From a bacterium (GTDB lineage: Bacteria > Hydrothermota > Tepidihabitantia > B3-TA06): DNA of 49,968 bases. This document shows positions 13,406 through 41,005 of the stretch, piece by piece. Both the position numbers and the translations under genes were made by a program. The stretch is taken from NCBI GenBank assembly GCA_012517375.1, contig JAAYVC010000065.1, positions 1-49,968 on the forward strand, read 5' to 3'. How positions within the stretch are numbered: position 1 is the stretch's first letter; every line of letters starts with the position of its first letter. The notes under the pieces were generated by a model, which did not search any database, was not told where the DNA came from, and was given only the letters and a program-made list of their open reading frames with translations.

Positions 13406-14050
13406 TCAGAAAAGATGAACGATTGCTCTTGCAAGAGGTCTTAACCACGATACATGCATGGTCGCGAAAGACCCGAGAATGTGAATTAGTTCTGGAGCAA
13501 CGTATAACCTCAGGGATGCGAAACCGAAAAGCAATCCCACAACAAGCCATGTTTGCCATTCCCTCAACGCCCACAAAGGATTGAATCCCTTGAAAAATGA
13601 ACCACGAAAGATTTTCGGGAAGAAAAGTTTTACCCTCTTCTTGTACATCTCGTAATCCTTTCCGAAGCGTTCGGCAAGGCTTTTTTCCTCCGCTTTGCCA
13701 ATCAATATGTAAAGGACTATAAAACCTGCCGATGTCAAGGATATCAGTATCCAGTGAGGCTGAAGAAGCGCTAATCCTGCTCCGACCAGAAGGCCATTTG
13801 CGATGTACAAAGGGTGCCTTGAAAGAGAATATGGGCCGCGAGTCACAAGACTCTCGTTTGATATCTTGGGGTTGCGCGAGACCGGACCTATGAAGCCCGC
13901 GGCCCAAAACCTTATAGCCAACCCGGGAAGGAACAACAAGGCGCTCCACAAACTTATCCAAGGATGTGCGAAGGCAAGCAAAACGAATACCCACAGCGCC
14001 GCAAGGGCGCTGCGGGTACGGAAGAGAGTTTGTCCTAAAGAAGCCTTCAA
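13406..14050 (-). CDS. Isoprenylcysteine methyltransferase-like membrane protein
   Basis: This 214-aa polytopic membrane protein has about five hydrophobic segments. The RGPYSLSRHPLYIANGLL motif (about residues 71-88) is the SAM-binding signature of the ICMT/phospholipid N-methyltransferase (PEMT) superfamily. A second conserved block, AEERFGKDYEMYKKRV-like, follows near 130. The substrate is unknown; small membrane lipids or isoprenoids are typical. It is the last gene of the SHOCT-module operon. The TTG start overlaps the preceding stop. Confidence 0.7.
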   Translation of the reverse strand: MKASLGQTLFRTRSALAALWVFVLLAFAHPWISLWSALLFLPGLAIRFWAAGFIGPVSRNPKISNESLVTRGPYSLSRHPLYIANGLLVGAGLALLQPHWILISLTSAGFIVLYILIGKAEEKSLAERFGKDYEMYKKRVKLFFPKIFRGSFFKGFNPLWALREWQTWLVVGLLFGFASLRLYVAPELIHILGSFATMHVSWLRPLARAIVHLF

Positions 14051-14391
14051 TGCAGGTAAATCTCCACGCGTTTTCCTTCGTTGTCTTTTACTTCAAAGAC
14101 CTTGCCGGGCTGGGCCTCGTTAAGAGCTTTCAGGATAGTTTCTGCCTGAATCTCCTGTTTGGAGAACACGCTCGATGGTACGAAGTTCATTGCGAATTTT
14201 GCGAGCGAGATGGGCAGGTTTACCCTTACATTCGGTTTTTCCTTATTGCCTTCATCAAATACAAGGATAGTAATCTCTCTCGCAAAAGGTCTTGCGCCTT
14301 CTATACTCTCAAGTAGTTTTTCAGCTTCCTCGGCCGTTATCTTGCCGCTTGAGACCATCCTGAGTATGCGAAGGGTTGTGTCGTTACTCAT
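14047..14391 (-). CDS. SHOCT-like module protein (114 aa)
   Basis: The protein starts MSNDTTLRILRMVSSGKITAEEAEKLLESI, a SHOCT-like two-helix module of the DUF2089-C/YvlB N-terminal type. A compact domain of about 75 residues follows with alternating beta and helical stretches (REITILVFDEGN, PNVRVNLPISLAKFAMNFVP). That arrangement is reminiscent of the LiaX/YvlB family partner region. The ATG at 14391 begins the family motif and overlaps the upstream stop by eight bases; an ATG at 14421 would add ten residues lying inside the preceding gene. It is probably cytoplasmic. Function is unknown. Confidence 0.7.
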   Translation of the reverse strand: MSNDTTLRILRMVSSGKITAEEAEKLLESIEGARPFAREITILVFDEGNKEKPNVRVNLPISLAKFAMNFVPSSVFSKQEIQAETILKALNEAQPGKVFEVKDNEGKRVEIYLH

Positions 14392-14902
14392 GGCGTCTTC
14401 TGCCCTTTTTCTGGTTATCAATGTCGACGGTTACTCCGAAGGACTCGTCGCGCCTGCCTCTGGTTTTGCGTATCTCCTCAACAGCGGTATCTACGTCTAT
14501 TTTTCCTTCTTCAAGCTTGTCTATAATTACCGTTACGTTGCGTGGTCTGCTTAACGCCTTGACTATGACGCTTACGATTATCGTTATTCCCAGAATCACT
14601 ATTATTACAGGCCACCACTGGGCGAAAGTAACAGGAATTATCAGGGCGTTGGAAAGCCAAAGACCGATACCGAACGCCGCGATAATAAGTCCCCAGAATA
14701 TGCCCCAGCCTGAGAACCATCTGCGTCTTTTTATGGCAGAGGCTATTACTCCGCCAAGCATGAGGAGTCCAAGCATCGAGAATATAAGGGGCCATGCTGT
14801 TTTGAAAGCTAGTAATTGAGGATAGATATTTCCGAGGTAAATCCAGACGCCTATCCAGGCTACTATAAGTCCAAAGATGATTCCCGAGATTGCACGGGTC
14901 AC
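14384..14902 (-). CDS. LiaF/LiaI-like membrane protein with SHOCT-like tail
   Basis: The 172-aa protein has four hydrophobic segments (about residues 5-23, 35-55, 64-85 and 92-113), arranged like the membrane domain of LiaF/LiaI/DUF5668 proteins. The cytoplasmic C-terminus carries a SHOCT-like module, DKLEEGKIDVDTAVEEIRKT (about 127-146). The GTG start has a strong AAGGAGG site and overlaps the preceding stop (GTGA). LiaF-type proteins damp envelope-stress signalling in Firmicutes; a comparable membrane anchor role for the other SHOCT proteins of this operon is my inference. Confidence 0.65.
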   Translation of the reverse strand: MTRAISGIIFGLIVAWIGVWIYLGNIYPQLLAFKTAWPLIFSMLGLLMLGGVIASAIKRRRWFSGWGIFWGLIIAAFGIGLWLSNALIIPVTFAQWWPVIIVILGITIIVSVIVKALSRPRNVTVIIDKLEEGKIDVDTAVEEIRKTRGRRDESFGVTVDIDNQKKGRRRHE

Positions 14903-15051
14903 TTATTCCTCCTTTTAGTATCGACTTTCACTAAAGCGGGGACACCTTTAACGGTGCGGCCAGCAAGGAAGTATATGATGGCAACCGTTCCAGCAAGTAC
15001 GGCTGTTATCAAGAGAACTCCAATTCCCGCTCCGTAAATCAGACCTGTCAT
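14899..15051 (-). CDS. 50-aa single-pass membrane protein
   Basis: A short gene encodes 50 residues: MTGLIYGAGIGVLLITAVLA and onward gives one transmembrane helix (about residues 6-30), then a basic tail ending KRRNK. It overlaps the upstream DUF4097 gene (ATGA) and the downstream LiaF-like gene (GTGA), and its last codons form the next ribosome-binding site. The exact overlaps on both sides and the clean helix argue that it is a real gene. No family recognised. Confidence 0.65.
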   Translation of the reverse strand: MTGLIYGAGIGVLLITAVLAGTVAIIYFLAGRTVKGVPALVKVDTKRRNK

Positions 15052-15998
15052 ATATTCCTCCTTTTGTGAATGGCTATATCCCCCTCCCTAGCCTTGATGT
15101 AAAGTTTTGTTTTCGGTTTACCGACTGTTATCTTATATTCTTCCATATCAAAAGCCGGTTCGTAATCCGTTTTTATTAAATCAAAATCGGAGTCGATATC
15201 CGAATCCTTGTTTTTGTGAATCGTTATCTCGACATCGGCGTCTTCGGGGAGACTCAAGTCTAAATCGCCGGAGCCAAGCTCTATCCTTCCCCCTTTGCAT
15301 TCTTCGAGGTCAAGATTGATATCTCCTGAACCCATGGATATTGTGAGCGATGCTGAAATGTTTTCTGCGTCCAGATCGCCCGAACCAAGGGATATCGCCA
15401 TTGCCCCTTTTATATATTCGAGGCGAATGTCGCCCGAACCAAGGGAGGCGGCAGTGCGTTCAGTTATATTGCTTATATCAATCTCACCTGAAGTGCTGCG
15501 CAAGGAGATATCAGCTATTCTTTCTACCTTAACATCACCCGAAGCGGCTTTTAAAATCATCTTCTGGGTGGCAGGTACTTGAACGAACATATCCCCTGAC
15601 ATTGTCTTTATCGTCAGTTCTTTTTCGGTCTCATTGACTCTGTGACCACCCTCAACTTTTATGCGGATATTAGCATCCTCGTCACCTTTTATGGTTACGT
15701 CGCCTGAGACTGCTTTGATTACAATGTTATCCTTCGGATTAAAGAGAAGATCCTTTTCTTCTCCTTCTCCGGTTATGAAACCCATTCCGGAGATGCTGGT
15801 TGAGATCAACTCGGGGAGATCCTTCAATTTTAGCTCCACTTTTCGGGCAATGCGTTCGCCAAAATCCGGACCGAAACCTGCATGACCTTTTGGACCCCAG
15901 CGATAGGTTTCTCCAAGAGCTTCAAGCAGCTTTGCCGCTTGATCGGCCGTTATTTTTCCTTCTTCAAGTAACTTAAGAATTCTTTCACGTTCTTCCAT
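15048..15998 (-). CDS. DUF4097-type beta-repeat protein with SHOCT-like N-terminus
   Basis: This 316-aa protein begins with a SHOCT-like module (RILKLLEEGKITADQAAKLLEAL, residues 5-27). A long right-handed beta-repeat of the DUF4097/YvlB adhesin-like type follows, with repeated units such as AVSGDVTIKGDED, AASGDVKVER, SLGSGDIRLEYIKG, SLGSGDLDAENIS and SMGSGDINLDLEE. There is no signal peptide or transmembrane helix, so it should be cytoplasmic. The layout matches LiaX/YvlB proteins, known effectors in antimicrobial-peptide and envelope-stress responses. Its start lies inside the end of the methyltransferase gene, preceded by GGAGG. Confidence 0.8.
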   Translation of the reverse strand: MEERERILKLLEEGKITADQAAKLLEALGETYRWGPKGHAGFGPDFGERIARKVELKLKDLPELISTSISGMGFITGEGEEKDLLFNPKDNIVIKAVSGDVTIKGDEDANIRIKVEGGHRVNETEKELTIKTMSGDMFVQVPATQKMILKAASGDVKVERIADISLRSTSGEIDISNITERTAASLGSGDIRLEYIKGAMAISLGSGDLDAENISASLTISMGSGDINLDLEECKGGRIELGSGDLDLSLPEDADVEITIHKNKDSDIDSDFDLIKTDYEPAFDMEEYKITVGKPKTKLYIKAREGDIAIHKRRNI

Positions 15999-16536
15999 TA
16001 TTGCCTCCGTTCTTCACGAAGTTTATGACCTTTTTTGTTTCTTCCCCTGCATTAAAGATGGCATCTTTTTCGATGATTCTGATAATCTCATGTTCTTCCA
16101 TATGGTGATCGCTGACTGAAAGCGTCCCTTCCGGTTTTAATATCCTTGCGATTTCAAAGAGGACCTTCTCCGGCTCTTTGAGCATGTGAAGGATGTCGTA
16201 GAGGATGACTAAATAAATCGAACCATTTTCGAGGCCTGTTTTGCAGTTCGAGGTTATTGTTTCTATATTTTCCAGGCCGTTTTTGCACGCAATGGACTTG
16301 ATTCTTTTAGCTGCAAGAGGTTGTATGTCAAGTGCGTAGACCTTGCCTTCTGAGCCCACAAGCTTTGAAGCAGCTATTGAATAGCTACCTGGTCCGCACC
16401 CGAAATCAAGAACCTTAAATCCTTTCTTGATACCTGCTTCTGCCAGAATCTCCTCCGGTGGGTTCTTGCGGTTGCGGCTAACCAGAGATGCGCACATGAT
16501 TCGAAATGCAATATCGCTCATGGGTTTATCAGACAT
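15985..16536 (-). CDS. SAM-dependent class I methyltransferase
   Basis: This 183-aa Rossmann-fold methyltransferase has motif I VLDFGCGPGSYSIAAS (about residues 40-55), motif II VYALDIQPLAAKRI, and the post-motif ILYDILHMLKEPEKVL with LKPEGTLSVSDHH. It is UbiE/ArsM-like in appearance but short, and the substrate cannot be told. The ATG at 16536 has a weak GAGG upstream and follows the previous stop by eight bases; a longer reading from 16590 would run back into the upstream gene. Confidence 0.8.
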   Translation of the reverse strand: MSDKPMSDIAFRIMCASLVSRNRKNPPEEILAEAGIKKGFKVLDFGCGPGSYSIAASKLVGSEGKVYALDIQPLAAKRIKSIACKNGLENIETITSNCKTGLENGSIYLVILYDILHMLKEPEKVLFEIARILKPEGTLSVSDHHMEEHEIIRIIEKDAIFNAGEETKKVINFVKNGGNNGRT

Positions 16537-16544
16537 TATTTGAA

Positions 16545-16817
16545 TCAATCCTCGTCGCAGCAGCAGTCGATATCCTCGTGACATCCACAATCGTCTGCGT
16601 GTTTGATAATTATCATCTTACGACCAGGACCGAACCCGTGGTTAATGTTATGAATTTTTCTCATAAGCTTGTGGGGGTGAAGATGATGGTGTGAATGTCC
16701 AAATGAAGCATTAATATGACCATAACTTTTTTGCACCGCTTCGAGAAGCTTCACAGCCTCGTCCGTTGTAATCTTACCTTCTTCAAGAAGATTCAGGATT
16801 TTTTTCCTTTCTTCCAT
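16545..16817 (-). CDS. SHOCT-like module protein with His/Cys-rich tail (90 aa)
   Basis: The first 30 residues are the SHOCT-like module (KILNLLEEGKITTDEAVKLLEAV). The rest holds a histidine cluster (HSHHHLHPH, about residues 41-49), further histidines, and a C-terminus with CGC...CCC (DCGCHEDIDCCCDED). The metal-binding look of the tail is striking; whether it binds zinc, copper or nickel is not determinable. The start at 16817 has AAGGAG six bases upstream. It is one of four consecutive small genes that share only the module and differ in their tails. Confidence 0.7.
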   Translation of the reverse strand: MEERKKILNLLEEGKITTDEAVKLLEAVQKSYGHINASFGHSHHHLHPHKLMRKIHNINHGFGPGRKMIIIKHADDCGCHEDIDCCCDED

Positions 16818-16827
16818 CGTATACTCC

Positions 16828-17022
16828 TTAAGCTCGACAGTCTTTTTTGAAGGCTGCAAGAAGCCTGTCTGCTTCATTTTTTGTTATCTTGCCTTCTTCA
16901 ACAAGCTTGAGGATTCTTTCCTTGTTGAGCATTGAATCCTCTTTCCTGCAAGCCTCTTCCTCTGCAATAAGCATTTCTTCTTCGTAGCAGGTATCCGTCG
17001 ATTCTTTCTCTTCGTAAGTCAT
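16828..17022 (-). CDS. SHOCT-like module protein (64 aa)
   Basis: An acidic N-terminus of about 30 residues with two cysteines (TCYEEEMLIAEEEACRKED) precedes a SHOCT-like module at the C-terminus (RILKLVEEGKITKNEADRLLAAFKK). The start at 17022 has GGAG six bases upstream. An internal ATG at 16932, also with GAGG upstream, would make a 34-aa protein that is the module alone. This is the only member with the module at the end rather than the beginning. Confidence 0.6.
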   Translation of the reverse strand: MTYEEKESTDTCYEEEMLIAEEEACRKEDSMLNKERILKLVEEGKITKNEADRLLAAFKKDCRA

Positions 17023-17037
17023 TTTAGTCTCCGTAAG

Positions 17038-17196
17038 TTACTCTTTATCGGGCGTTTCAGGAGGAGCTGGGGGAGAGGGAGGCTCGATGATACAGCATTC
17101 CTGACCTGGGCCTAAAGCCTCGAGAAGACGCACTGCTTCATCTACGTTGACCTTTCCATTTTCAAGGAGGTCAAGAATTATCATTCTTTCGTGCAC
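17038..17196 (-). CDS. SHOCT-like module protein with Pro-rich tail (52 aa)
   Basis: The module MIILDLLENGKVNVDEAVRL-LEAL covers residues 5-28. A short tail has a CC pair and a proline-rich stretch (ECCIIEPPSPPAPPETP). I take the GTG at 17196 as start because AAAGGAGG lies five bases upstream; a TTG further out lies before that site and is unlikely. The C-terminal Cys pair parallels the cysteines in the neighbouring tails. Confidence 0.6.
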   Translation of the reverse strand: MHERMIILDLLENGKVNVDEAVRLLEALGPGQECCIIEPPSPPAPPETPDKE

Positions 17197-17207
17197 GTCA
17201 TCCTCCT

Positions 17208-17513
17208 TTAATCGCAGACGGAGCAATCTCCAAAAGGCATTATTTCAATGTCACCTACATCACCGCAATAGGGTTTATTCATCCTGACAACAATCTTTCT
17301 CGGGGTGTGCCCGAAGAAAGGGTTATGTCTGATGGCAAAGCGCGGTATGTAAATCCTTTTTTCAAAACGCTTATGATGATGCTTGTCAGTATTGACGTCC
17401 ACACAGAGATCATCAGCAAAGCTTTTCTTCAACGCTTCCAGAAGTTTTGCGGCATCGTCGGCATTGATTTTTCCTTCTTCAAGCATCTTCAAGATTCTTT
17501 CCTTAGGGTTCAT
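17208..17513 (-). CDS. SHOCT-like module protein with Cys-ended tail (101 aa)
   Basis: This 101-aa protein starts with the module RILKMLEEGKINADDAAKLLEALKK (residues 6-30). A tail of about 70 residues contains HHH, aromatic/basic segments (KRIYIPRFAIRHNPFF) and a C-terminus with CGDVGD and GDCSVCD. The ATG at 17513 has AAAGGAG five bases upstream. A role in metal binding or thiol chemistry is possible from the cysteines, but the family is unknown. Confidence 0.65.
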   Translation of the reverse strand: MNPKERILKMLEEGKINADDAAKLLEALKKSFADDLCVDVNTDKHHHKRFEKRIYIPRFAIRHNPFFGHTPRKIVVRMNKPYCGDVGDIEIMPFGDCSVCD

Positions 17514-17524
17514 TTCGTCTCCTT

Positions 17525-17626
17525 TCAATCGCATAAGTTAATGAAACCACGAAGGATATTCTTCACGAACGTATCCTCTAGCTTATCTCTTCTCAGGATT
17601 ATCGGTCGGTGGTTATAAGTCTTCAC
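17525..17626 (-). CDS. Predicted 33-aa small protein
   Basis: Between the DUF2089 gene and the first SHOCT-only gene, the minus strand reads GTG then KTYNHRPIILRRDKLEDTF and so on to 33 residues, ending in NLCD. An AAAAGGAGG site lies four bases before the GTG; an ATG directly upstream is too close to the site. The stop overlaps the next ribosome-binding site. It is basic with no transmembrane segment. The good ribosome-binding site and lack of spare space support it, but 33 codons is short. Confidence 0.45.
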   Translation of the reverse strand: MKTYNHRPIILRRDKLEDTFVKNILRGFINLCD

Positions 17627-17637
17627 CATTCCTCCTT

Positions 17638-18024
17638 TTACGCGTCCTCATCGGATTCCTGTTTCCGGATGAGTTTTATTGCATCCTCTGCAGAGAGCTC
17701 ACCTTGCTCAAGTTTATCAAGTACGTCACTTATCTCTTCCTGAGAGGCGCTTGAGGTTATTATGCCCATCTTAGCCAGTAATGCGTCCAGACGGTTGCGC
17801 ACCGTAGGGTAGGAGAGTGCAAGTTCCCTTTGCACGTCTCTTAGGCTACCCCTGGAGCGCAGGAATATCATAAGAAATTCGCGCTCCTGTTCATCCAGCC
17901 TTGAAAATGGCGGTATCTCAAAGTCTCCCTTGATCTTAGTGTCGCACTTTCTACAACTTAGTTCGGAGATGAAAAGCTCTCCTTCGCAGACCGGACATTT
18001 TCCAATCAATTTCTTTTCTGCCAT
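17638..18024 (-). CDS. DUF2089-family regulator with zinc ribbon, HTH and SHOCT-like tail
   Basis: In 128 aa: an N-terminal zinc ribbon with C10-x2-C13 and C24-x2-C27, a helix-turn-helix region (about residues 42-85, with GSLRDVQRELALSYPTVRNR), and a C-terminal SHOCT-like module (KLEQGELSAEDAIKLIRK, about 104-121). This is the DUF2089 layout, probably a DNA-binding regulator. It is the first gene of a twelve-gene operon whose other products carry the same module, so control through module-module contacts is an attractive inference. The ATG falls at the predicted transcription start, giving a leaderless mRNA. Confidence 0.8.
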   Translation of the reverse strand: MAEKKLIGKCPVCEGELFISELSCRKCDTKIKGDFEIPPFSRLDEQEREFLMIFLRSRGSLRDVQRELALSYPTVRNRLDALLAKMGIITSSASQEEISDVLDKLEQGELSAEDAIKLIRKQESDEDA

Positions 18025-18030
18025 GCCCCT

Positions 18031-18058
18031 ATTATAATCAAAATTTTAACTTTGTCAA
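18031..18058 (-). promoter_or_regulatory. Leaderless-type promoter of the SHOCT-module operon
   Basis: On the minus strand, TTGACA (18053-18058), a 16-bp spacer and a perfect TATAAT (18031-18036) lie six bases before the DUF2089 ATG. Two copies of AAAATTAAA further upstream (18072-18080 and 18093-18101) are 21 bp apart, two helical turns. They could be an UP element or regulator site. Confidence 0.75.
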
Positions 18059-18218
18059 GGTCTACTTTAACAAAATTAAATTGAAGTGAAATAAAATTAA
18101 AATTAGGGCAGTTGGGATTAAAATTTTTTTGACGACGTCCATTCCGTTGGCGACGAGGTAGAAAAGCTGGACAAAAGATGGTCAAAAGATGGTCAAATAG
18201 CCGCTGGAAGGCTGCATA

Positions 18219-18783
18219 GCCTCCAGGGGAGGCATGCGCGGAATGGAATTCCGCGAACATTACTTTCGATAGAGATCAATTTTGAAGACACCGGATGAAG
18301 TCAGGTTTGAAGAAGAGAGTCAGTTCTCCTCTCCTTGACGGGAAGGGATTAGGGGAAAAATGAGAGTCGAAATTCGAGAGTGGTCGAAAAAAGATTTCAC
18401 ATCCACCCAGCCTCCCCCTTGTGGGGAGGATTGGAGGATGGGGGTAAACCAAAGTCATTGCGAGGGAGCATCCAAGGGAGGCATGAGCGGAAGTTCCTTC
18501 CGCAAGGCGTGGCGATCTCATAGCACTATCTTATGTTCTGAAATACAGAGTCATGTGTTTTGTGCTTAGTGCCAGGAGATTGCTTCGGTTTCTGGAAGCA
18601 ACCTCGCAATGACTATTCAAGATAACCACGTCACCCTGAGCGAGCGACCGAAGGTCGCATGGGCTTAAGCGTAGCTTAAGTAAGTTACTTCCGTTCAATG
18701 GTAGCGGCTGGAAGCCGCATGGGTCGAACTTCGTTCGACAAAATTAAGGCGGTGCGCCGTGAGGGTCTCACTAAACGTGAGAC
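18219..18783. repeat. Array of five two-hairpin units, 35-37 bases each
   Basis: Five units share one plan: hairpin A, a linker, hairpin B. They lie at 18219-18255, 18468-18503, 18644-18680, 18704-18739 and 18748-18783. In the first four, A is 6+3+6 bases and the linker is ATG, ATGA, ATGGG or ATGG. B is 17 to 19 bases. Stem sequences are unrelated between units, yet both arms match. Loops are mostly three bases and mostly GNA or its complement (GAA, GTA, GGA, TTC). The A hairpin of the unit at 18468 has one mismatch; the last unit has a shorter A and linker GTGAGG. Further triloop hairpins follow at 18890-18902 (inside a larger stem 18879-18911) and 18916-18928, both with TCC loops. Confidence 0.75.
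18453..18614. repeat. Large inverted repeat with CATTGCGAGG ends
   Basis: AGTCATTGCGAGG (18453-18465) is repeated in perfect inverse as CCTCGCAATGACT (18602-18614). GCGATCTC (about 18512) and GAGATTGC (about 18576) pair inside it, so the whole 162 bases can fold as a long cruciform. CATTGCGAGG/CAATCTC palindromic repeats of this kind occur dispersed in many bacterial genomes. One two-hairpin unit sits inside the left arm. Confidence 0.6.
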
Positions 18784-18973
18784 GAATTGTTAATCAAAGA
18801 TGATCGCTTCGCTCTTTAGGTCGGCCCGCACAATTCGGGCGCACCTGAAGGTACGCCCCTACGGGCTTGTGGTTATCTGCCGAACGCCTGCGCTTCCAGC
18901 GCACGTTCGGCCAATGCGCCTCCGGCGCTGCCCCTCCCCCCTTTGTGGGGGAGGCTGGGTGGGGGGGTAATCC

Positions 18974-19002
18974 TTGACACTCCACCCATTCTCGCATAAA
19001 AT
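18974..19002 (+). promoter_or_regulatory. Promoter of the EEP-family gene (copy 1)
   Basis: TTGACA (18974-18979), a 17-bp spacer and TAAAAT (18997-19002). The leader is about 37 bases with a GGAGG site. The whole block through the first nine codons recurs at 20318-20430. Confidence 0.7.
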
Positions 19003-19045: not shown

Positions 19046-20140
19046 ATGCCTTTTTATTACGGACTGAAGACGAGAGAACCCAAGCCTCTGAAGTTTTCAC
19101 AGGAGGACAGGAAACGCACTGCAGAGCGCTTGCTCCTGCTTCGCGAAAAGCTAAGAGGAGAGGTGCCATCCCGTACGGTGTCCGAGAGCCTCTTGCTCGC
19201 CACCTGGAACATCCGAGAGTTTGGTTCGAACAAACGATCAGCGCGTCTGGCGGAATCGCTCTACTATATTGCCGAGATTATCTCCGCGTTCGACATAGTC
19301 GCAGTGCAGGAGGTGAACGCGGACATGGCCGAGCTCGAGCGGGTCATGCGAATACTCGGCCGCAACTGGCGCTACATAGCGACCGACGTCACCGAAGGCG
19401 CGTCCGGCAACCGGGAGCGGCTCGTGTTCGTTTACGATTCCGCTAAGGTCACGTTCCAGAACATCGCGGGCGAGATAGTGCTGCCCGAAGGCTCGCTGGT
19501 CACGGACACAAAGCAGTTTGCGCGCACGCCGTTCATGGTCGCCTACCAGTCGGGCTGGTTCAAGTTCATGCTCGCGACCGTGCACATCTACTACGGCAAG
19601 GAGGGCCAGAATACCCCGGAGTTCGCGCGCCGTGTCGCGGAGATTGAAAAAATAGCCCTGACCATCGCCGAGCGTGCAAAGGAAGATGCACAGCACCGGT
19701 TCGTCCTTCTCGGCGACTTCAACATCGTCAGCCCCGAGCACAAGACCATGGAGGCGCTTCGCAAGCAGGGCTACTTTATCCATCCCGAGCTCATGAAGAA
19801 GCCTTCGAACTACAAGCGCGACATGCACTACGACCAGATAGCGTTCCGCGCCAAGGCCGACGAGCTTTTGCTGGGCGACGGCCGCGTCGCAGCCGACCCC
19901 GCAGCTAAAAAGAACGCGGGCGTGTTCGACTTCAACCAGGTGGTCTTTACCGATTCCGACTTCAAGGTCTACAAGAACACCGTCAAGGAGCAGACGAAGC
20001 TCGACGACTCAAAGCTCGAAAAGGAGTACCTCTCGAGCTGGCGCACGTACCAAATGTCCGACCACTTTCCCATGTGGGTAGAGATGAAGATAGACTTCGC
20101 TGACCGGTATCTTGCAAAAATCGTGGAGTCCGAAAGATAG
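19046..20140 (+). CDS. Endonuclease/exonuclease/phosphatase-family protein
   Basis: This 364-aa protein belongs to the EEP (DNase I/exonuclease III-like) superfamily. ATWNIREFG near residue 53 supplies the metal-site Asn, IVAVQEVN the catalytic Glu, LLGDFNIV the Asp/Asn pair, HYDQIAF follows, and the C-terminal SDHFPMW supplies the Asp-His. No signal peptide is seen, so the substrate (DNA, inositol phosphate or lipid) is open. The start at 19046 follows GGAGG by five bases. The gene is clearly richer in G and C at third positions than the flanking genes, suggesting recent acquisition, and it is bordered by hairpin-rich DNA and a duplicated promoter block. Confidence 0.85.
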   Translation: MPFYYGLKTREPKPLKFSQEDRKRTAERLLLLREKLRGEVPSRTVSESLLLATWNIREFGSNKRSARLAESLYYIAEIISAFDIVAVQEVNADMAELERVMRILGRNWRYIATDVTEGASGNRERLVFVYDSAKVTFQNIAGEIVLPEGSLVTDTKQFARTPFMVAYQSGWFKFMLATVHIYYGKEGQNTPEFARRVAEIEKIALTIAERAKEDAQHRFVLLGDFNIVSPEHKTMEALRKQGYFIHPELMKKPSNYKRDMHYDQIAFRAKADELLLGDGRVAADPAAKKNAGVFDFNQVVFTDSDFKVYKNTVKEQTKLDDSKLEKEYLSSWRTYQMSDHFPMWVEMKIDFADRYLAKIVESER

Positions 20141-40949: not shown

Positions 40950-41005
40950 AAAAATAGCGGCTGGAGGCGCAATGTCTCTTGACAGTCGCTTGAGCCCCAT
41001 GGTGT

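Follow-up and report, generated by a model that had tools for sequence, protein, structure and literature searches.

A dispersed bacterial repeat family of paired hairpins, very probably REP-like and kept for its single-strand fold

The window (the whole stretch of 49,968 nucleotides that was analyzed) holds, between a minus-strand gene for a DUF2089 regulator and a plus-strand gene for an exo/endonuclease-phosphatase, a series of short, paired hairpins. These raise the question of what keeps both arms of a stem complementary when the stems themselves differ from unit to unit. An earlier note, made from the sequence alone, had described five units of 36–37 nt, each with two perfect triloop hairpins (here A and B) and a short linker. 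All five are present (18219–18255, 18467–18503, 18644–18680, 18704–18739, and 18748–18783), but two perfect triloop hairpins occur in only three of them. The note had also counted a loop of GNA or its complement in eight of the ten triloop hairpins of the region. We obtained the same count, the two exceptions being AGG at 18225 and GTG at ∼18752; the wording "GNA or its complement" arose because hairpin A had been pooled with B and with nested hairpins.

The proposed comparison with shuffled controls was made by searching, regardless of sequence, for a triloop hairpin of at least 6 bp adjoining a stem of at least 7 bp (loop of 3–5 nt, gap of 2–7 nt). The DNA read from the source genome comprised stretches around matches and a sample (407–562 kb). 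In 407 kb, 10 adjacent hairpin pairs were found, and none of ten dinucleotide-shuffled versions of the same DNA contained any; nine of the 10 include hairpin A of the repeat family (see below). Three of the 10 are within 18200–18999, compared with 0 in 500 local shuffles, and the DNA folding z-scores of the five units on the plus strand range from −3.3 to −5.1.

The hairpin pairs belong to a single short, dispersed, non-coding, lineage-restricted repeat family. Each unit is built, in order, from a head (mostly TAG; also GTAG or GGAG), hairpin A with a 6-bp stem and a purine-rich triloop that is mostly GGA, an AT(G/T)(G/C) joint, and hairpin B, whose loop in some copies contains a small, nested A-like hairpin. 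The stems had been called completely unrelated, which is overstated: A is nearly always GC..CY/RG..GC and B nearly always GNNGAA/TTCNNC, and the fixed features of the hairpin A region include its outer GC pairs, pair 5 (C-G), and the AT joint. When up to three mismatches were allowed, the core of unit 4 (GCGGCTGGAAGCCGCATGGG) was found at 26 places in the 2.54-Mb source genome, 13 on each strand, compared with 0 for a reversed control, and the exact core was absent from all GTDB species genomes other than the source (84,980 genomes scanned). A covariance model built on 29 copies, R1, matches 39 places in the source genome at E<0.01 and 12 in genomes of the same family (nine in G001, two in G002, and one in G003), with no matches among 57 other genomes of the class. 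The copies are mostly intergenic, between adjoining genes of every relative orientation, and in stretches with usable GC skew, 8 of 15 fall on one replication strand, which gives no informative bias.

Four of the five units of the note match this model, but the fifth has no match. Unit 1 (18215–18254, plus strand; 27.2 bits, E of 3.3e-5 in the window, outside the training set) reads CATA-GCCTCC-agg-GGAGGC-atgc-GCGGAAT-gga-ATTCCGC, with both hairpins perfect. Unit 2 (18464–18503, plus; 19.2 bits, E of 0.0033 in the window, outside the training set) is a weak copy with one mismatch (A-G) in hairpin A. Unit 3 (18640–18681, plus; 33.3 bits, part of the training set) reads GCGA-GCGACC-gaa-GGTCGC-atgg-GCTTAAG-cgtag-CTTAAGT, and unit 4 (18700–18739, plus), the canonical copy and, at 51.9 bits, the best match of the genome, reads GGTA-GCGGCT-gga-AGCCGC-atgg-GTCGAAC-ttc-GTTCGAC. 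Unit 5 (18748–18783, plus) has no R1 match up to E=5 and is not a member: a short GC hairpin with a 4-bp first stem is followed by a 7-bp hairpin with a 5-nt loop, and a partly homologous relative on contig 11 (L034) does not retain the second hairpin. An additional, minus-strand copy occupies 18879–18932 (29.5 bits, E of 8.5e-6 in the window, outside the training set); it reads GGCA-GCGCC-gga-GGCGC-attg-GCCGAACG-(tGCGCTggaAGCGCa)-CGTTCGGC and has a nested hairpin within B. The shorter match that had been reported at 40956 (TAGCGGCTGGAGGCGCAATG) is not a hit of the model.

Pairing was analyzed in 53 distinct copies, in which, as the note had anticipated, a change in a variable pair nearly always affects both of its bases. 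Pair cells are standard in 96–97% of cases and 82 cells carry double changes, the corresponding numbers being 23 for shuffles and no more than 10 for controls with a slid partner, although these counts are inflated, as the model copies were partly picked by pairing and their alignment was fitted to the model. For this reason, two further tests carry more weight. The first used the pattern AGCNNNN-GNA-NNNNGCATNG, in which none of the four variable pairs of A is specified and which thus does not select for pairing. It has 26 matches, compared with 4 in the control, and all four N pairs are complementary in 18 of the 26, which have seven different stems. The second test used the 16 copies that have the upstream flank GTCAGGATT...(GGTCAAAAG)n-TA, whole or in part. 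These contain six A stems (GCGGCT, GCGACT, GCCGCT, GCGGCC, GCGACC, and GCCACC), each with a matching 3′ arm, and 14 of the 16 are fully paired, the broken ones being L026 and L055. The presence of six paired stems within common flanks shows that stems were altered where they stood, and not only through replacement by other repeats.

The head and the loop of hairpin A are fixed on one strand. Among the 53 copies, the head is xTAG in 38 (exact GTAG in 23) and GGAG in 6, and its final G is base-paired with the stem's last C. On the head strand, the A triloops are GGA (33), AGA (7), AGG (4), CGA (2), GGG (2), GAA (1), and GGT (1). No inverted A loop (such as TCC) occurs among the 53 copies, and none was found in the genome-wide core search with three mismatches, which was able to show it. 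An inverted loop (TTCC for GGAA) was seen only in the hairpin nested in B, in two copies (L040 on contig 95 and L049 on contig 10), where a template-switch or inversion event is its likely origin. It is thus a purine-rich loop on the head strand, and not "GNA or complement," that characterizes hairpin A. The fixed strand of head and loop suggests recognition of a folded single strand.

The same observations bear on a mutational explanation, in which the units are repeat debris whose stems are perfected by template switching during replication and whose fold is not selected. Hairpins with multiple compensatory changes are documented products of template switching, which also maintains them (PMC8794818). 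The family shows what such a process could leave behind, since the nested hairpin GCGCTGGAAGCGC is loop-inverted (GCGCTTCCAGCGC) in two copies with related flanks, which is a template-switch signature, and since G-U intermediates are almost absent from helix A (3 of ∼305 cells). This process would nevertheless leave three things unexplained: the constant strand of head and A loop, the fixed state of the outer GC pairs, of pair 5 (C-G), and of the AT joint, and the occurrence of the same frame in other genera. We therefore regard palindrome repair as an unlikely explanation for the family, although for the pairing itself template switching is still the strongest competing account, and the perfect pairing may in part be due to it instead of to selection. 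A REP-like family kept for its single-strand fold is, on this evidence, highly probable. The 53 copies, several of them in common flanks, constitute a compact natural data set on which selection for a single-strand fold can be set against palindrome repair by template switching.

In another explanation, the hairpins would be passengers of a larger, MITE-like composite repeat that is moved by a different (e.g. DDE) transposase. The longer flank GTCAGGATT...(GGTCAAAAG)n is common to at least 12 copies, which indicates that part of the spread occurred as larger composite repeats. One such end, (GGTCAAAAG)n-ATA plus a hairpin A that has decayed (GCCGCTGGAAGGCTGCAT), was read by eye at 18180–18217 (plus strand), directly before unit 1, and the same flank is found at intact copies on contigs 28 and 69. 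The same units, on the other hand, occur in at least three unrelated contexts (a GTCATTGCGAGG palindrome, GGGAGGCATA, and GGGGGAGG), and neither target-site duplications nor empty sites could be resolved around the copies because these sit in mosaics of other repeats. A composite repeat as the mobile entity is, in our judgment, distinctly improbable.

The earlier note had also allowed for a function in RNA, by which the two hairpins would act in transcripts as an mRNA stabilizer, a processing site, or a protein-binding sponge. Such a role would agree with the stability of the folds, the covariation of the stems, the resemblance of GGA loops to CsrA sites, and the view that published REPs are often transcribed (PMC3733652). 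Both likely promoters of the region are, however, strong promoter-like sites that lie outside the repeats and read away from them: TTGACA-16-TATAAT at 18031–18058 (minus strand) precedes the DUF2089 gene (17638–18024, minus), and TTGACA-17-TAAAAT at 18974–19002 (plus strand) precedes the exo/endonuclease-phosphatase gene (∼19046–20140, plus). The units are therefore probably in the transcript of neither gene. In addition, copies are found in every gene orientation, G-U pairs are few in helix A, no terminator-like sites were seen at the region, and the only Rfam matches in the window at gathering score are two tRNAs, with none at the units. A gene for CsrA was not found in the source genome, and a CsrA sponge was rejected; a transcribed RNA element or terminator was likewise rejected. 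A role in RNA is thus unlikely, an RNA element of the above kinds very much so, and a role in DNA is to be favored.

Among known DNA systems, the family is most readily compared with the GTAG-REP superfamily (Di Nocera et al. 2013, PMC3733652; Nunvar et al. 2010, PMC2817692), whose members are short intergenic palindromes of tens to hundreds of lineage-restricted copies with a one-sided GTAG-like head, stems of 5–13 bp, and loops of 2–20 nt. They form sub-families with alternative complementary stem residues and have nested complementary sequence in loops. The present family resembles them in its 39 mostly intergenic places, its 6-bp stem and triloop, and its double-change cells. Alternative stem residues, short loops, nested loops, and missing REPtrons have all been described for GTAG repeats, as have degenerated units joined to unrelated stem-loops (PMC3733652), and in REPs complementary mutation preserves the palindromes (PMC2817692). 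The differences are that the head is here often ATAG, CTAG, or GGAG with its G paired in the stem, that a fixed, head-less second hairpin follows after ∼4 nt, and that a cognate RAYT was not found in the genome. Hairpin B also lacks the CTAC or CTCC end that it would have in the inverted dimers of BIMEs and REPINs. The double-palindromic terminal inverted repeats next to the P. putida 607 and P. fluorescens 4255 tyrosine transposases (PMC3733652) are, by description, similar in combining a degenerated GTAG-1 hairpin with an unrelated one in hundreds of dispersed copies, but B has here a conserved frame and covaries. From these comparisons, we conclude that the family is new and that its kind, a GTAG-REP-like double-palindrome repeat, is already known. 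That A and B together make up one composite single-strand signal, read in fixed register by a putative protein of this bacterial family and selected for its two-hairpin shape, seems rather doubtful.

The mini-hairpins of the C(GNA)G type, such as d(GCGAAGC), are very stable in DNA, and some stems of the family do close C-G with GGA or GAA. The assignment of hairpin A to this type did not hold up, since the A loop closes T-A in 29 of 53 copies and C-G in 17, and its loops are also AGA, AGG, GGG, and CGA.

The note had proposed a search for a linked Y1 transposase. No RAYT or Y1 gene flanked by family copies was found in the source genome (∼97% complete, 125 contigs), and no cognate RAYT was found there or beside the copies in G001. 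The single Y1/RAYT match of the source genome (L009/L205; contig 47, 1260–1577, minus strand) is located in frame inside a restriction-methylase reading frame of the Eco57I/TaqI_C type. On either side it is flanked by GGAG-GGACAAGGGGTTTAAACCCCTTGTC palindromes that differ from the two-hairpin family. A Y1 match within a frame of comparable length was also seen in G001 (contig 7, L212), and this arrangement suggests that a REPtron was inserted or fused in frame.

Relatives of the same family contain true RAYTs (NF047646 above cut-off) with double-hairpin flanks that end GTAG...CTAC or GGAG...CTCC. On contig 87 of G001, the RAYT flank reads GTA-[GAACCGGCA]-GGA-[TGCCGGTTC], with the triloop and layout of hairpin A, and a second hairpin comes next. 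On contig 3 of G002 (L208), the RAYT gene has three double-hairpin units of the form GGAG...CTCC, with compensated changes distinguishing their stems. Unlike the family, these REPtrons have a second hairpin with an inverted head (CTAC or CTCC), and their stems are different. The REP pattern of the G001 unit (L142) was found only at its own transposase gene. The RAYT machinery thus exists in the clade, its putative tie to the two-hairpin family being one of likeness only.

The proposal of the note that the units are REP/RAYT-like elements kept for their fold agrees with the dispersed copies, the TAG/GTAG/GGAG head, the strand-specific loop, the compensated stems, and the similar flanks of the relatives' RAYT genes. 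In the explanation we favor, an HUH (Y1) transposase of the RAYT type would have recognized the folded single-stranded form of head, stem, and loop (e.g. on the lagging strand) and would have spread the units into intergenic DNA. Cleavage by a RAYT is impaired by reversal of the triloop or by a mismatch in the middle of the stem (PMC8266576). Copies that lost their fold would have ceased to spread, so that the survivors would be folded, and template switching between arms may have helped to repair units. Taken as a whole, this explanation is likely; its mobilizer, a RAYT-type enzyme proposed from likeness to the relatives, has about an even chance. Against the explanation speak the different palindrome that flanks the only Y1 match, the exact GTAG in just 23 of 53 copies, and the lack of an inverted head in B, in contrast to ordinary REP dimers. 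In the source genome, the family now looks non-autonomous or a relic because no cognate transposase gene was found.

For a neighboring protein, the best named relatives are from Candidatus Stahlbacteria and candidate division WOR-3 assemblies (51–53% identity), and further matches are labeled Anaerolineales, Clostridia, and Desulfuromonadales; kinship with WOR-3 is tentative. A literature search for REPs in WOR-3 returned nothing. With the present data, the range of fold-conserved, REP-like repeats and of RAYT genes flanked by double hairpins is extended to a WOR-3-related lineage.

Several dispersed repeat families make up, as a mosaic, nearly all of the ∼950 bp between the divergent genes (18030–18980); they include CACCCAGCCTCCCCC palindromes at 18390–18433 and 18933–18975. 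Unit 2 is contained in a longer palindromic repeat with inverted arms, GTCATTGCGAGGGAGC...GAAGCAACCTCGCAATGAC (GTCATTGCGAGG...CAATGAC), at 18455–18613 (plus strand). In dispersed copies of this palindrome, the interior hairpin varies and the outer arms are alike, which is mosaic behavior at a larger scale. Adjoining the DUF2089 regulator gene, a cluster of small genes (14047–17534, minus strand) encodes proteins with a repeated N terminus of the ERKKILNLLEEGKITxxEAxKLLEAL type.
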